From a virus: 64,000 nt of DNA. The stretch covers positions 28,089 through 92,088 of IMG/VR virus record IMGVR_UViG_3300025093_000002, one strand, 5' to 3'. The first letter of the stretch is position 1; each line of letters opens with the position of its first letter. Positions 7,359 through 64,000 of this stretch are shown piece after piece. The translations under genes were made by a program, and so were the position numbers. The notes below the pieces were generated by a model, which saw only the letters and a list, made by a program, of their open reading frames with translations, was not told the DNA's origin and searched no databases.

Positions 7359-7436
7359 CATATGGCGGGACGCATCCCGAAAAGTCAAGGGACGCATCCC
7401 GCTACCGTCAAAATATTTTTCATGGGATGGAATCCC
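7359..7436. promoter_or_regulatory. Left operator/promoter region of prophage A: three GGGA-N4/5-TCCC sites
   Basis: Three inverted repeats lie between the Cro-like and repressor genes: GGGACGCATCCC at 7367-7378 and 7389-7400, and GGGATGGAATCCC at 7424-7436. The leftward promoter can be read as TTGACT (7383-7388), 18 bp, CATATG (7359-7364), so the first site sits in the spacer and the second next to the -35. The third overlaps the start region of the repressor gene. Three more copies lie at 8603-8666. Binding by the A repressor is inference. Confidence 0.75.
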
Positions 7437-7438
7437 GC

Positions 7439-8110
7439 ATGAATGACGCGATGCACAAACGAATCAAGGAACGGCTTGAAAGCCTTGGGATGTCCGCAGC
7501 GGCGGCTTCAAGGAAGGCCGGCCTGTCGCCCGACTTCATTCGGGACATGATGCGGAAAGGTGCTAGGCCAGGAGCGGAAAACCTCGCCAAGTTGGCGAAG
7601 ACGTTAAAAACGTCGCCCGAATATTTACTCCAAGGTAACGAGCCAACGCGGACCATAGACGTAGTTGGGATGCCGGTGATCGGGGTAATCGAGGCGGGGC
7701 AGTTTCGAGACATCACGCTCATCAATCAGGACGAAGAGTATCCGATGGTGAACGTCGTGCAGGACGATCGCTTTCCGCATGCTCGGCAATACGCGCTGAG
7801 GGTGAGCGGCGATTCGATGAACAAACTATTCCCGGATGGCAGCTACGCGATTTGCGCGGAGTTTGCCGATACTGGCATGCGCCTGAAGGACGGCCTGGTG
7901 CTGCACGTCGAGCGCTACATCGCAGGGACGCACCTCGTGGAGACGACGTTGAAGCAGGTCGAAAGCTCGAACGGAAAGCGCTTCCTTGCGCCGCGAAGCA
8001 CTAATCCTCGTCACAAGCCCGTCGAGATAACCGAAGACACCGACTTGTCCGAACTCAAGGTGCGCGGCCTCGTCATTGGCAGCTACACTCCCCAGCATTT
8101 CGGCTTCTGA
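7439..8110 (+). CDS. LexA/CI-type phage repressor of prophage A (223 aa)
   Basis: An N-terminal XRE-type helix-turn-helix (about residues 18-60) is followed by a S24/LexA-like self-cleavage domain. The candidate cleavage site is Ala86-Gly87 (IGVIEAGQF), the catalytic Ser126 is in VSGDSMNKLFPDG and the Lys172 is in HLVETTLKQV. It should maintain lysogeny by blocking both early operons and be inactivated by RecA during SOS. In-frame ATG codons at 7427 and 7451 are alternative starts. HTH sequence differs entirely from the prophage B repressor, as do the operators. Confidence 0.9.
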   Translation: MNDAMHKRIKERLESLGMSAAAASRKAGLSPDFIRDMMRKGARPGAENLAKLAKTLKTSPEYLLQGNEPTRTIDVVGMPVIGVIEAGQFRDITLINQDEEYPMVNVVQDDRFPHARQYALRVSGDSMNKLFPDGSYAICAEFADTGMRLKDGLVLHVERYIAGTHLVETTLKQVESSNGKRFLAPRSTNPRHKPVEITEDTDLSELKVRGLVIGSYTPQHFGF

Positions 8111-8113
8111 GCA

Positions 8114-8209
8114 TTGCGTCTAATTTTTAGACGGTAGATATACGGTCCTTATCTTTCTTCTCTAAGAGTTAGATATAGAGACCATATATCTTGCGTCTAA
8201 TTTTTAGAC
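8114..8209. repeat. Pair of 19-bp direct repeats containing a 15-bp palindrome
   Basis: TTGCGTCTAATTTTTAGAC occurs at 8114-8132 and again at 8191-8209. Its core GTCTAATTTTTAGAC is a perfect inverted repeat with a 3-nt centre. The pair lies in the convergent gap between repressor and winged-helix genes, the second copy covering the stop codon of the latter. They may be binding sites of the winged-helix protein or weak bidirectional terminators. Confidence 0.7.
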
Positions 8210-8602: not shown

Positions 8603-8676
8603 GGGAACGGTCCCGTTCGCGCAATCCAAATAATCGGGATTGGTCCCTTGACGCGGGATTTGTCCCGTGCTTATCT
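8603..8676. promoter_or_regulatory. Right operator/promoter region of prophage A: three more GGGA-N4-TCCC sites
   Basis: GGGAACGGTCCC (8603-8614), GGGATTGGTCCC (8636-8647) and GGGATTTGTCCC (8655-8666) match the three sites left of the repressor. A strong rightward promoter, TTGACG (8648-8653), 17 bp, TTATCT (8671-8676), has one site in its spacer and one directly before its -35. It would drive the rightward early operon and should be shut by the A repressor, as lambda OR shuts PR. Confidence 0.75.
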
Positions 8677-13144: not shown

Positions 13145-13543
13145 ATGGGCCGCGCGCTTCTCGTCATCAACTCAACCGCCGAACGCCAGAAGGCCGCTGC
13201 TTGGGTGCAGCAAGCCCCCTGGGGAACGCGCATTGAATACAAGGGGCCGAAGCGCACCCTGCCCCAGAACGACCGCCTGTGGGCCATGCTGACGGACGTA
13301 GCCACGCAACTGACGTGGCACGGCGTTCGCCTCACGCCCGACGACTGGAAGCTCATGTTCCTCGATGGCTTGAAGCGCGAACTGCGCATGGTGCCGAACA
13401 TCGAGGGCAACGGGTTCGTGAACTTGGGACGCTCTTCGTCCGACTTGGACAAACAGGAGATGAGCGACCTTTTCATCATCATCGAAGCGTTCGGCGCAAA
13501 GCATGGCGTCACGTTTCACGACCGTCAGGAGCGAGCCGCATGA
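13145..13543 (+). CDS. ninB: NinB-type recombination protein (132 aa)
   Basis: GPKRTLPQNDRLWAMLTDVA followed by WKLMFLDGLKREL matches lambda NinB (Orf), a single-strand DNA- and SSB-interacting protein that replaces RecFOR functions. Nearly identical to the B copy at 63590-63988, showing recent exchange in this module. SSB precedes it by 8 bp. Confidence 0.85.
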   Translation: MGRALLVINSTAERQKAAAWVQQAPWGTRIEYKGPKRTLPQNDRLWAMLTDVATQLTWHGVRLTPDDWKLMFLDGLKRELRMVPNIEGNGFVNLGRSSSDLDKQEMSDLFIIIEAFGAKHGVTFHDRQERAA

Positions 13544-13728
13544 GCCTCCCCCTCACCGCCCCTAGCTCTGTCCGCCGCTCTAAGAGGCGGTGCGCGCAGT
13601 ATGTCGAGACACACGAGCAGCTTCGACGCGAAGTCGAGATTATGCGCCAGTCCGATGGCCTTGGAGCATGGCTTGCCGATGCCCTTGAGGCTGAGATGGG
13701 CTGCTTTGATGCGGAGGCGGCGGCATGA
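13540..13728 (+). CDS. Small phage protein (62 aa)
   Basis: Starts MSLPLTAPSSVRRSKRRCAQ and continues as a charged helix. The first codons are repeated at the right edge of the window (63985 onward) after the second ninB, so B carries the same gene start. ATGA overlap with ninB. Unknown function. Confidence 0.6.
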   Translation: MSLPLTAPSSVRRSKRRCAQYVETHEQLRREVEIMRQSDGLGAWLADALEAEMGCFDAEAAA

Positions 13729-41232: not shown

Positions 41233-41531
41233 GTGTCACCATTTGGTTGATCGGAGTCTTCGGGCGGCGGGACAGCGGCCCACGCCGATATGATTGCACC
41301 CACGCGACGCATCCCGGCCCGGAAGGCCAGTTTCGCGTGGCTCTCTGCGTCCATCTCCGAAAGCAGCCCGCCTTCGGAATAGTCGATGATCTGCGAAAGC
41401 ACCCGCTTGCCCTGCTCGGAGCCGAACACGGCCCGGAAGTCTCGGTAGCGGTCGAGACGGGTATAGCCGCCGCGTCCAACCCTGACCGGACGCAGCGCCT
41501 CGATGAAATCGGCGATGTCCTGGTCGTTCAC
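41229..41531 (-). CDS. Bbp19-like protein (100 aa)
   Basis: RDFRAVFGSEQGKRVLSQII and a C-terminal helix resemble the Bbp19 family of Bordetella phage BPP-1 and relatives, always beside the portal gene. Probable head protein; exact role unknown. ATGA overlaps with both neighbours. Confidence 0.7.
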   Translation of the reverse strand: MNDQDIADFIEALRPVRVGRGGYTRLDRYRDFRAVFGSEQGKRVLSQIIDYSEGGLLSEMDAESHAKLAFRAGMRRVGAIISAWAAVPPPEDSDQPNGDT

Positions 41532-43171
41532 TGCGCCGCCGCCATGGAGATGTTCTTGTCCATTTCACTCAGCGTCTTGCCGGTTTGCGCCATCTGCCCA
41601 ACACCCGCCATGCCTGCCGCCTGCGCCTGCGCCTCTGCTCTCTGCTGGCGAAACGCCTCGACCTGATCTCGCGGCTTCAGCCATTTGTTCGGCGTCGAGA
41701 ACATGTCGGGAAGATCGCGCACGATTTCGTCGGCGTCGAAATTATCATAGACGGACGGGTCAATCGCTCCGATGGGGGCGATGAACTCAAGGCTTCGCGC
41801 CAACGCCGCCGCCTCGATCTGCTTGCGGGCCTGCTGGATCGGACTCATATATTCGAAAGCCACGTCCTGCCCCTGCAAAGCTTTCGGAACGGGCGGCAGC
41901 GCGCCGGCGCGGAGCATGATGCCGAAGACGCGCTCGACCGTATGGCCGATATAGCTCGCCTCCAACTGCCCCATGACAGGGCCGATGGTACGCAGGAATT
42001 CTTCCTTGCGCTCCATCACTTCGGTCGCCGTCATCTGACGACCCTCGACCGGCAGATTGAATACATTCTTGAAGAACGCCGCCTCGACCATCGAGCGGTA
42101 GTCCATCTGCATGTCGCGGCCGATCGGGATGTTGGCCCCTACGTCAAGCTGTCCCATGGGTCGCCCGCCCGTCTGGCGAACGATCTCCGAGTCAACCACG
42201 GTCAAGCCGCCTGGAAAGGTGCGAACGGCCGACAGGACGCCATCATCGGCAATCCAGATCGGCGGATCGACGGCGCGTTGACCGCCGACGAGAAGCGTAT
42301 GCCCCATCGCCTGAAGCGTGCGCGCATCGGGCAGCGCGATCATGGCCGGTGAACGGGGGTAGATTTCGCCCGGCGCGAGTTCCCATCGCGGCGTTGAAAT
42401 GGGCAATTCGTCAAAGCCGCCGGTCTCGACAATCTCCTGGTCCTCGACGGAAACAATCTTCGAGGCGAAGCGCTTGTTCGGCTGATCCTTCTTGCGCGGG
42501 TCATATTCGTGGCGCGGGGAAATGCACTGCACGAACTCGAATGTCTTCGGCGCGTTGCCCGCCTTGGCCGGGTTCTTGAGTTCCTCCGCGACCTTGGCCG
42601 GGAGTTGGTCGCCGAAACGCTGCTGCGCCTGACGCGCGGTAAAGCGCCGGGTCAGCGTATAGGTATCGACCAGGCCGTCCGAATTCTCATCGAACGCCAC
42701 ATCGCCAATGAACAGCGCCTTGAAGGTCAGCCCGTTGCGGGCCGCGTTTTCCACAATCCACAAGTGACCGAGACCGAACGTCGCAAGGTCGCTGTCCACG
42801 GCCCCGGATGCTTCGATGAACCGGGCGCGCGGGTTGTAGATCGCCCGCCACATGCGGTCCTGCACGTCATCGAACCACGTCTTGACCTCATCAAGGTCGT
42901 TCAACCTTTCATCGCCGGCAGCCATCCAGAACCAGCGCGTGGTGGACGGCTTCAACAGCCCGTCGATCGCAGTCGCCAGTCCGCGACGCGCCTGCATCGG
43001 CGTGGTGTCGTAAAGCTCGCGCGACGACTCCCTGCCCGGAACCATCGGCATGGTGAACTGCGCCTGGTTCGGCAGGAATATCTGAGCCAATTCCTGCCAC
43101 AGCGGCCGCCACTGGTCACGGCGCGCGGCAAGGCTCTTGTGGCGGTCCAGGATGTCAATCGCTTCGGACAA
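41528..43171 (-). CDS. Portal (head-tail connector) protein (547 aa)
   Basis: The opening DRHKSLAARRDQWRPLWQEL and MVPGRESSRELYDTTPMQAR is the typical start of the podophage head-tail connector family, and the length fits. It forms the dodecamer through which DNA enters. The C-terminus has a Gln/Ala-rich helix (RQQRAEAQAQAAGMAGVGQM). Confidence 0.88.
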   Translation of the reverse strand: MSEAIDILDRHKSLAARRDQWRPLWQELAQIFLPNQAQFTMPMVPGRESSRELYDTTPMQARRGLATAIDGLLKPSTTRWFWMAAGDERLNDLDEVKTWFDDVQDRMWRAIYNPRARFIEASGAVDSDLATFGLGHLWIVENAARNGLTFKALFIGDVAFDENSDGLVDTYTLTRRFTARQAQQRFGDQLPAKVAEELKNPAKAGNAPKTFEFVQCISPRHEYDPRKKDQPNKRFASKIVSVEDQEIVETGGFDELPISTPRWELAPGEIYPRSPAMIALPDARTLQAMGHTLLVGGQRAVDPPIWIADDGVLSAVRTFPGGLTVVDSEIVRQTGGRPMGQLDVGANIPIGRDMQMDYRSMVEAAFFKNVFNLPVEGRQMTATEVMERKEEFLRTIGPVMGQLEASYIGHTVERVFGIMLRAGALPPVPKALQGQDVAFEYMSPIQQARKQIEAAALARSLEFIAPIGAIDPSVYDNFDADEIVRDLPDMFSTPNKWLKPRDQVEAFRQQRAEAQAQAAGMAGVGQMAQTGKTLSEMDKNISMAAAQ

Positions 43172-57701: not shown

Positions 57702-58078
57702 GCTGCGGCTTCCCCTTGGCGTGTTGCGCGGGCGATGTATCGCGGAGACGCCGCCGTATCGGATGGGTCTGGGATCGCACCGAAGGCGCTGGCTACGTCT
57801 TCGCCAGCCTTGACACGCTCGATGCGGGCCATGAGGTCGGGCGTCGGGAAGAACCACTCGCTATGACTGCGAGAGTCCGCATATTTCCGATGCAGGAAGC
57901 GCTCAAGCTGGTGAGTGCCCTCGCCTTCTGCGATCAGTTCCAACGGGAATGGCGACCACTGCGAGACGGCATTCAACCGATCTTCTGGAAACGACGAGCA
58001 GCCAATCTTGATTGGGCTCATCATGCCGCGAGGGCGCATGAAATAGACGACCTTGAACCTGTCTGCCCATTCGCTCAT
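57698..58078 (-). CDS. GIY-YIG/T5orf172-like protein (126 aa)
   Basis: FKVVYFMRPRG and PIKIGCSSFPEDRL form the GIY-YIG-like strands (YF and IG), and HQLERFLHRKYADSRSHSEW gives a His/Glu-containing helix seen in T5orf172 proteins. The ending ARATRQGEAAA is the same as in the A protein (6593-7123). Likely DNA-binding or nuclease. Confidence 0.65.
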   Translation of the reverse strand: MSEWADRFKVVYFMRPRGMMSPIKIGCSSFPEDRLNAVSQWSPFPLELIAEGEGTHQLERFLHRKYADSRSHSEWFFPTPDLMARIERVKAGEDVASAFGAIPDPSDTAASPRYIARATRQGEAAA

Positions 58079-58305
58079 GACGCCACCTTCTGGTCGTCGC
58101 CCGCGCGGTGTTCGCGCTGCTGCTCAAGCCAGTCGTTGAACTTCACCTTCCCGCCCGTAGCCGCTTCGATGGCCGCGATGATTTCCGGCTTCGGAAAGCG
58201 GTCGTTGTTGAGGTATCGGTGCATTGCGGGCTGGCTAACGCCGACTTTTTCAGCGAATGCCGTGGCCGTAATCTTCCGGGCGGTGAGGAAATCAATGAGC
58301 TTCAT
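58075..58305 (-). CDS. Cro-like HTH regulator of prophage B (76 aa)
   Basis: MKLIDFLTARKITATAFAEK, VGVSQPAMHRYLNNDRFPKP is a classic XRE helix-turn-helix. It is the first gene of the leftward operon, divergent from the repressor. The ATG at 58305 is preferred; two earlier ATG codons would put the start inside the promoter -10. Confidence 0.8.
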   Translation of the reverse strand: MKLIDFLTARKITATAFAEKVGVSQPAMHRYLNNDRFPKPEIIAAIEAATGGKVKFNDWLEQQREHRAGDDQKVAS

Positions 58306-58312
58306 AACCGCC

Positions 58313-58365
58313 ATCATACCGATTTGGTATCGACGTTCAAGCGCTAATTTATACCGTTATGGTTT
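58313..58365. promoter_or_regulatory. Left operator/promoter region of prophage B: two ATACC-N5-GGTAT-type sites
   Basis: ATACCGATTTGGTAT (58316-58330) is an exact inverted repeat around a 5-nt centre; ATACCGTTATGGTTT (58351-58365) is a near copy. On the minus strand TTGAAC (58335-58340), 16 bp, TATGAT (58313-58318) is a strong leftward promoter overlapped by the first site. The second lies upstream of the repressor gene. Confidence 0.75.
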
Positions 58366-58401
58366 TTGTGCGCTGCGGGCCGTGGAATTATGATCCCGGA
58401 C

Positions 58402-59046
58402 ATGAACCAGCTACGGGTATTGCGCGAGAAAGCGGGACTGTCGCAGTCGGCCTTGGCCGAGCGCGCCGGCACGTCTCAACCGCAAATCCGTCGCCTGGAA
58501 GCCAGCCAGCGAAAATTAACCAAGCAGTGGGCCGAACGGTTAGCGCCTCATTTACAGGCCAGCGCCCAAGACCTACTCTTCTCGGATTCTGAAGGGACGA
58601 CACGAGAGGTTATCGGCCTGCCCGTTCTCGGCAAGAGCAGGGCGGGCGACTGGCTGGATATTTCGATTATGGATGATTGGCACGAGCCGGAAGTAATTCA
58701 CGTCGCGCGCGATCCTCGTTACCCGCACGCAAAGCAGTATGCTCTCAGGGCCGAGGGCGATTCCATGTCGGAGCTTTTCCCGGATGGATGCTATGTGACG
58801 GTCGTCAATTTTGCCGAGAGCGGTTTGGGCTTTCGACCTGGCATGGTCGTCCATGTCGAGCAGCGAATGGGCGGCACCTCGCTCGTCGAGACGACCATCA
58901 AGCAAATCAGCGACGACCTGAAATGGCTCCTGCCCCGGAGCAAAAACCCCGTTCACAAGCCTTTGCCGATCGAAGGCAGTGCCGCGACCGAAATTGAGGT
59001 CAAAGGCATCGTGACGGGCAAGTGGGAACCAATCAGTTTCGATTGA
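58402..59046 (+). CDS. LexA/CI-type phage repressor of prophage B (214 aa)
   Basis: The XRE domain (LSQSALAERAGTSQPQIRRL, residues 13-32) is followed by a S24 peptidase domain with the candidate cleavage site Ala81-Gly82 (KSRAGDW), Ser121 (AEGDSMSELFPDG) and Lys167 (LVETTIKQI). It should hold B in lysogeny and be cleaved during SOS. An ATG at 58390 is an alternative start. C-terminal domain is related to the A repressor; the DNA-binding domain is not. Confidence 0.9.
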   Translation: MNQLRVLREKAGLSQSALAERAGTSQPQIRRLEASQRKLTKQWAERLAPHLQASAQDLLFSDSEGTTREVIGLPVLGKSRAGDWLDISIMDDWHEPEVIHVARDPRYPHAKQYALRAEGDSMSELFPDGCYVTVVNFAESGLGFRPGMVVHVEQRMGGTSLVETTIKQISDDLKWLLPRSKNPVHKPLPIEGSAATEIEVKGIVTGKWEPISFD

Positions 59047-59130
59047 ACGGCTAGAGATACAACCTTCTATCTCAGAGCCACTACACCTAAGAGCTAAACC
59101 TTTTAGGAATTTGCCTTTACCTATTCGGCG

Positions 59131-59172
59131 GCAACATCTTGCCGGGGTAGGTATGCAACATCTTGCCGGGGT
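59131..59172. repeat. Pair of 18-bp direct repeats beside the winged-helix gene
   Basis: GCAACATCTTGCCGGGGT is present at 59131-59148 and 59155-59172, a 24-bp period. Each copy contains the small inverted repeat GCAA/TTGC. The second touches the stop codon of the winged-helix gene, the same place as the 19-bp repeats of prophage A (8114-8209). Confidence 0.75.
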
Positions 59173-59525
59173 CACATAAACGGGGCGTGCAGGAAGTAGC
59201 AGCTTTGCTTCCCCGGTTCTTCGACAACGATTAGCACGTTTCGGGCTCGCAGCTCGGCAATTCCATAGCGAACGGTTCGCACGTTCTTGCCCATGCGATC
59301 CGCAATCCCCTTCACTGAATACCAGCAGCATTTGTCCTCGCCGTTCATCCGGCGTGACAGCCAGTAGCCGACGCGAAAAGCGCGGTCGCTGAGGTCTGGC
59401 ATGGTCACCAGATACTCAGCCCACTTCCTCCGATTTTCATAGAAGGCGGCGGCGTCATCGCCGTTGTCGTTCGCTTGCCGAATCGCTGGCAGGATTTTCG
59501 GTCGAAAAGATTTTTTTGCGCTCAT
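59172..59525 (-). CDS. Winged-helix DNA-binding protein of prophage B (117 aa)
   Basis: LSDRAFRVGYWLSRRMNGED and YSVKGIADRMGKNVRTVRYG, IAELRARNVLIVVEE form a winged helix. It is basic at the start. Convergent with the repressor and divergent from the rightward operon, as in A, but not similar in sequence. Possibly a replication or transcription switch protein. Confidence 0.75.
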   Translation of the reverse strand: MSAKKSFRPKILPAIRQANDNGDDAAAFYENRRKWAEYLVTMPDLSDRAFRVGYWLSRRMNGEDKCCWYSVKGIADRMGKNVRTVRYGIAELRARNVLIVVEEPGKQSCYFLHAPFM

Positions 59526-59535
59526 GCCCTCATCT

Positions 59536-59577
59536 ATACCGATTTGGTATTGACGCGCAATGCCAAGATGGTATGTT
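59536..59577. promoter_or_regulatory. Right operator/promoter region of prophage B
   Basis: ATACCGATTTGGTAT (59536-59550) exactly repeats the left site at 58316; ATGCCAAGATGGTAT (59560-59574) is a variant. The rightward promoter TTGACG (59550-59555), 16 bp, TATGTT (59572-59577) is overlapped by both. It should be shut by the B repressor. Confidence 0.75.
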
Positions 59578-59640
59578 CGTTCTCACACCCCCGGTGCAGA
59601 CGGTTCGCCTGAGCCCGCACCACAAACCGGAGACGAGACG

Positions 59641-59988
59641 ATGGCAATCAGCCCGAATGGATACACCGACGATTTCGGTCCGAACGTTTCGGCCATCCTC
59701 GTTGGCGGCACCCGCGTCATTCGTGGCCCCATCCCGGCGCGGGTTCGCAAGGAACTCGCTGCGGCTGTGAAAGCTGGCGTTCTTGGCCGCCTCGCGAAGG
59801 ACGGCCTCAAGCCGGAAATCTTCTTCCACCCGAGCCACAAGAATGGGGCCATCGAGCGCCAGAAGAGCGAGGCACTTTATGCGGCAAAGTGCATCGCCGG
59901 CGTCGTCGCCAGCCCCGCCGATGTGCGCGCTGGCATCGAGGCTCAGGGCGGGGATGTCCTCGCCTATGCCCTTAACGAGCGCGCCTAA
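59641..59988 (+). CDS. First gene of prophage B's rightward operon (115 aa)
   Basis: MAISPNGYTDDFGPNVSAIL then RKELAAAVKAGVLGRLAKDG and a helical C-terminus. GGAGACGAG lies before the ATG. Similar short proteins open many phage early operons. No known function. Confidence 0.65.
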   Translation: MAISPNGYTDDFGPNVSAILVGGTRVIRGPIPARVRKELAAAVKAGVLGRLAKDGLKPEIFFHPSHKNGAIERQKSEALYAAKCIAGVVASPADVRAGIEAQGGDVLAYALNERA

Positions 59989-63589: not shown

Positions 63590-63988
63590 ATGGGGCGCGC
63601 TCTCGTCATCATCAATTCGGACGCCGAACGCCACAAGGCCATGTCTTGGCTGCGTCAAGCGCCGTGGAACACCCGCGTCGAGTTCAAGGGGCCAAAGCGC
63701 ACCTTACCCCAGAACGACCGCCTCTGGGCCATGCTGACGGACGTATCCACTCAACTGACGTGGCACGGCGTGCGGCTTTCGCCCGACGACTGGAAGCTCA
63801 TGTTCCTCGACGGCTTAAAGCGCGAATTGCGCGTGGTGCCGAATATCGAGGGCAACGGCTTCGTGAACCTGGGCCGCTCGTCGTCCGACTTGGACAAACA
63901 GGAGATGAGCGACCTTTTCATCATCATCGAAGCGTTCGGCGCAAAGCATGGCGTCACGTTTCACGACCGTCAGGAGCGAGCCGCATGA
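63590..63988 (+). CDS. ninB: NinB-type recombination protein of prophage B (132 aa)
   Basis: Same length and almost the same sequence as 13145-13543, with GPKRTLPQNDRLWAMLTDVS and WKLMFLDGLKREL. The match is close at DNA level too, although the upstream recombinase and SSB genes are different, so a crossover point lies near its start. Confidence 0.85.
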   Translation: MGRALVIINSDAERHKAMSWLRQAPWNTRVEFKGPKRTLPQNDRLWAMLTDVSTQLTWHGVRLSPDDWKLMFLDGLKRELRVVPNIEGNGFVNLGRSSSDLDKQEMSDLFIIIEAFGAKHGVTFHDRQERAA

Positions 63989-64000
63989 GCCTCCCCCTCA
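63985..64000 (+). CDS. Start of the gene following ninB, cut by the window edge
   Basis: ATGAGCCTCCCCCTCA repeats the first 16 bases of the A gene at 13540-13728 and has the same ATGA overlap with ninB. Only five codons are visible. Confidence 0.55.

Follow-up and report, generated by a model that had tools for sequence, protein, structure and literature searches.

The Cro and CI proteins of lambdoid phages usually act on common operators. For the Brucella temperate phage BiPBO1, which resembles the phage described here in that its host is one of the Hyphomicrobiales and its repressor gene stands opposite a second start codon, the operator sites have been reported as not predictable (PMC4729917). 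This work concerns the immunity region of a phage in virus record IMGVR_UViG_3300025093_000002, within a window of 64,000 nucleotides that spans positions 28089-92088 of the 92,088 base pair (bp) record; coordinates are those of the window unless the record is named. Very probably, as judged by comparative sequence analysis, four palindromes of the form ATACC-N5-GGTAT are the operators of the repressor CI-B of this phage, phage B, and are laid out in lambdoid fashion, while a second phage in the record, phage A, uses another helix-turn-helix (HTH) and another operator, the two phages having been joined in assembly.

The likeness to the immunity regions of lambda, P22, 434 and HK022, a comparison that rests on general knowledge, extends to several features. 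Divergent cro-like and cI genes encode an HTH protein and an HTH protein with an S24 domain (58075-58305, minus strand; 58402-59046, plus strand), palindromic operators at 58316 and 58351 lie over both divergent promoters (the cI promoter being weak and read by eye), a second operator set at 59536 and 59560 lies over an early promoter as a conserved 24-bp pair, and related phages appear to have undergone heteroimmune module exchange. The differences are that phage B has two O_R sites rather than three (a third is found at -13 in many relatives), a 24-bp O_L spacing and the operator ATACC-N5-GGTAT itself, that its cro message is apparently leaderless or nearly so, and that an HTH gene of replication type lies between cI and O_L. 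The features of the region are as follows.

58075-58305, minus strand: Cro-like repressor, HTH_3 / YdaS-like, likely start ATG at 58305
58340-58313, minus strand: cro promoter (Pcro), TTGAAC-16-TATGAT, found by pattern scan, overlapped by a site
58316-58330: O_R1, ATACCGATTTGGTAT, covering the -10 element of the cro promoter; the phage Mae-JY35 has the same 15-mer at the same place
58336 (TTCAAG) and 58358 (TATGGT): putative cI promoter (PcI), weaker, read by eye
58351-58365: O_R2, ATACCGTTATGGTTT, covering the likely -10 element of the cI promoter
58402-59046, plus strand: CI-B repressor, HTH_31 and Peptidase_S24-like domain by family matches
59172-59525, minus strand: HTH_36 / replication-initiator-like protein, its transcription pointing away from O_L
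59560-59533: putative promoter of the HTH_36 gene, TTGCGC-16-TATAGA, weaker, read by eye
59536-59550: O_L1, ATACCGATTTGGTAT, touching the early promoter at its -35 element and overlying the likely -10 element of the divergent HTH gene
59550-59577, plus strand: early promoter, TTGACG-16-TATGTT, found by pattern scan, overlapped by sites
59560-59574: O_L2, ATGCCAAGATGGTAT, at 24 bp from O_L1, covering the early promoter's spacer and -10 element
59641-59988, plus strand: first gene of the early operon, without a family match

A preliminary description of this DNA had placed the exact 15-mer at 58316-58330 and 59536-59550, with variants at 58351 and 59560, and had held that all four overlap promoter elements. 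Both copies are where it put them, and the variants are one-mismatch forms of ATACC-N5-GGTAT. The promoter overlap is firm for Pcro and the early promoter, the two promoters found by a scan for sigma-70-like patterns over 58200-59700, and weaker for the cI and HTH_36 genes, whose promoters were read by eye. Allowing up to three mismatches, the 15-mer gives six matches at four distinct places, two palindromic places being counted on both strands; none of 100 shuffles reached six (mean 0.52). No further perfect ATACC-N5-GGTAT occurs in the full 92,088-bp record. When two mismatches are allowed, the enrichment of the core pattern is no more than weak (12 matches where 7.5 are expected, with 5 of 100 shuffles reaching 12), so the weight falls on the exact repeat, the positions of the sites and the comparative evidence.

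For that evidence, relatives of CI-B were fetched by protein similarity alone from viral contigs and bacterial genomes, and loci from the reverse search described below were added. With identical N-terminal domains removed, and one locus (L035) left out as the start of its repressor is cut off, 42 other distinct repressors were scored for an upstream site, defined as a match to ATACC-N5-GGTAT, with one mismatch or none, within the 160 bp ahead of cI. Such a site is present in 38 of the 42, where dinucleotide shuffles predict about 0.2 in all, and in 26 of the 29 loci found by protein similarity only. The offsets from cI cluster at -82 to -86, -50/-51 and -13, and the phage B sites, at -86 and -51, match them. 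An O_L pair with 24-25 bp spacing is commonly found 0.8-4 kilobases (kb) downstream of the cI start in the relatives; 16 of the 29 protein-only loci have it on that side of cI. A score matrix built from 48 sites of these 29 loci, none of them from the window or Mae-JY35, gives the four phage B sites the four highest scores in the whole record (24.8, 24.8, 20.5 and 19.1; next 13.2).

The reverse search of the viral collection used the O_L pair alone, as ATNCC-N5-GGTAT-N9-ATNCC-N5-GGTAT, and returned 28 stretches. A clear CI-B-type repressor accompanies 20 of these, within the stretch in 19 cases and elsewhere on the contig in one, and two more of the 28 contigs carry a weak relative. Some contigs are common to the forward and reverse tests, an overlap in material and not in logic. 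One genome record, JAHREI010000004.1 (L061), is titled Bacillus subtilis SK6B4, yet its repressor and its operators hardly differ from their counterparts in Pseudochrobactrum (L060); it is probably mislabelled or contaminated.

Possession of the site goes with one recognition helix. The helix of the class is AGTSQPQI-RLE (TSQPQI-x-RLE), which CI-B carries, and Q26, P27, Q28, R31 and L32 are invariant in an alignment of 20 sequences (A1). Plasmid copies from Shinella and Azospirillum with TSQPQI carry the site. There is no ATACC-N5-GGTAT site at a locus that has only the C-terminal domain in common with CI-B (L004), nor at five with another HTH or recognition helix (L025, L005, phi3LM21, mEp213 and Javan414); the background frequency of the site is one in 164 kb. 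Three 99-residue repressors (L011, L012 and L013) have the same HTH and operators but lack an S24 domain and must therefore be induced in another way; a search based on L012 gave no phage match. Site specificity thus appears to follow the HTH. The conserved position of the palindromes and their co-occurrence with one recognition helix strongly support their earlier designation as operators of repressor B.

Close to phage B stands the isolate phage Mae-JY35 (Microcystis phage; PP438426.1, L074), whose 'repressor protein C' is 92% identical to CI-B. It has the exact 15-mer at both places, an identical one-mismatch O_R2 at -51 and the same gene order as phage B, but its structural genes are closer to those of phage A and its record has no operator annotation. 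The record of Mae-JY35 gives Microcystis as host, whilst its class of immunity region is otherwise found mainly in Hyphomicrobiales genomes; the phage may in truth infect a bacterium associated with Microcystis. Rhizobium phage RHph_Y25 (MN988538.1) shares the HTH and has sites at both control regions, but its tblastn match to CI-B ends after the HTH (residues 1-70).

From the sequences and positions of the sites, their conservation and their co-occurrence with the helix, we infer binding, repression and immunity as follows. A CI-B dimer would bind ATACC-N5-GGTAT through the helix AGTSQPQI, shutting off the lytic promoters and regulating its own gene. O_R1 and O_R2, in the gap that separates the cro-like gene from cI, would act on Pcro and PcI, whose -10 elements they cover, and O_L1 and O_L2, 1.2 kb off, over the early-operon promoter and the promoter of the divergent replication-type HTH gene. 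In the repressor sequence P0001 the motifs SRAGDW, GDSM and VETTIKQI can be read, candidates for the Ala-Gly cleavage site and Ser-Lys dyad of an autocleavable LexA/S24 repressor, and Pfam gives an S24 match; a search of solved structures gave 3kxa as a weak HTH match.

Both cro and the HTH_36 gene, with starts at 58305 and 59525, begin exactly 11 nucleotides from a copy of ATACCGATTTGGTAT. In 31 of 35 scored relatives, the window included, the start codon of the divergent frame lies 9-12 nucleotides from the operator over the -10 element (a hand count from the table), and in 16, by the automatic tally, it lies at exactly 11. On this spacing, the cro message is probably leaderless or nearly so throughout the repressor class. 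Between cI and the HTH_36 gene, at 59131-59172, the 18-bp sequence GCAACATCTTGCCGGGGT forms a direct repeat, its two copies 24 bp apart.

The control regions of phage A look different, and the earlier statement that its operator set is distinct stands: GGGA-N4-TCCC in place of ATACC-N5-GGTAT, with none of the B sites in A.

7367-7400: predicted operators of phage A between its cro and cI genes, GGGACGCATCCC, copies at 7367 and 7389
7439-8110, plus strand: CI-A repressor of phage A, HTH_3 and S24, for comparison
8603-8666: predicted phage A operators before the early operon, GGGA-N4-TCCC, at 8603, 8636 and 8655

Five of the six copies of GGGA-N4-TCCC in the record lie in the two control regions of phage A and none in those of phage B, and the B-type matrix scores in the two A regions are below -3. 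Since the sites of repressor A are other than those of B and include none of them, the two phages are probably heteroimmune, with separate immunity. The repressors themselves show 45% identity over 150 residues in their C-terminal parts and a weak 40-residue match (E = 5e-4) in their N-terminal parts. DNA homology between phage A and Mae-JY35 stops at the cro-cI-HTH segment, which B shares with Mae-JY35, and resumes on both sides; such a break is the usual signature of immunity-module exchange. A peptide-pattern search for relatives of CI-A found one distant locus, and GGGA-type sites are absent from phi3LM21, whose repressor resembles CI-A in its C-terminal domain. Beyond the cI gene of phage A, the 19-bp sequence TTGCGTCTAATTTTTAGAC stands in two identical copies, at 8114-8132 and 8191-8209, 77 bp apart.

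Separate immunity groups had been held to explain a double lysogeny, and for the double lysogeny the preliminary description finds no support. Most likely, two phages that occurred together were merged into this record during assembly, a reading drawn from the 148-bp repeat found at the junction and at the record ends and from each half being a whole phage.

13436-13583 (record 41524-41671): A/B junction, a 148-bp stretch identical to the joined record ends

The record has one and the same sequence at positions 1-99, 41545-41643 and 91990-92088, the ends thus overlapping by 99 bp, and the portion of the repeat at the record end is 91969-92088 (window 63881-64000). Read across the joined ends, the shared stretch is 148 bp long, and no other exact repeat between the halves exceeds 99 bp, the next longest being 76. 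The halves, of about 41.5 and 50.4 kb, are each collinear with the whole of Mae-JY35 (42.4 kb). The two would have merged in a figure of eight, as circular or permuted genomes joined at a common stretch that exceeds the word length of the assembler.

A true double prophage in tandem, with A beside B in one chromosome and their coexistence permitted by heteroimmunity, would account for an integrase, a CI and a different operator set in each half, but has little probability. No host or bacterial DNA was seen in the record, whose ends fall in phage early genes; the only long repeat coincides with the junction; and that junction sits among the early genes, some 2.3 kb away from the integrase, and not at an attachment site beside it. 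In sample 3300006790, A and B pieces of 100% identity are on separate contigs, which agrees with two phages without being proof; the same holds for contigs with the portal of B or the integrase of A, which were not shown to cross the junction. Conclusions on double lysogeny drawn from the 92-kb record are therefore unsafe.

Certain points weigh against the overall account of CI-B operators, separate immunity and merger. The merger is read from sequence signatures, and a direct B-to-B junction pattern was not found in the viral collection. Given the C-terminal identity of CI-A and CI-B, mixed oligomers or a common inducer are possible. Four of the 42 relatives (L016, L055, L067 and L070) have no upstream site, so the rule is not absolute. 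Lastly, the main ligand could be Cro instead of CI.

Competition by Cro for the CI-B sites is probable. The proposal that Cro or the HTH_36 protein, in place of CI, is the chief ligand of the palindromes draws on the overlap of these with Pcro and the HTH_36 gene promoter as well as on the habitual sharing of operators in lambdoid phages. Against this, the sites and the CI helix AGTSQPQI occur together; binding by CI and by Cro is not mutually exclusive. As an alternative to CI the proposal is improbable. That the palindromes are chance or generic promoter-like repeats, for which the weak enrichment of the loose pattern in the window might speak, is already refuted by the forward and reverse counts (38 of 42 against 0.2 expected, and 20 of 28) and merits almost no credence.

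Dozens of phages of rhizobia-like bacteria carry the palindromes at matching positions. The ATACC-N5-GGTAT operator class is widespread, mainly in phages of the Hyphomicrobiales, and undescribed in the literature searched, where the operator string gave nothing relevant, coverage being partial and such absence weak evidence. The comparison provides a concrete predicted operator for a widespread repressor class, in phages of rhizobia, of Brucella relatives and of other Alphaproteobacteria, that is uncharacterised in that literature, and immunity groups could become predictable from sequence. More tentatively, and with rather less than even confidence, ATACC-N5-GGTAT and AGTSQPQI may form one large portable immunity specificity, in which operators and DNA-binding domain move together, with varied C-terminal domains or none, among otherwise unrelated Hyphomicrobiales phages and phages related to these. 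If so, phages alike in nothing else might cross-repress.
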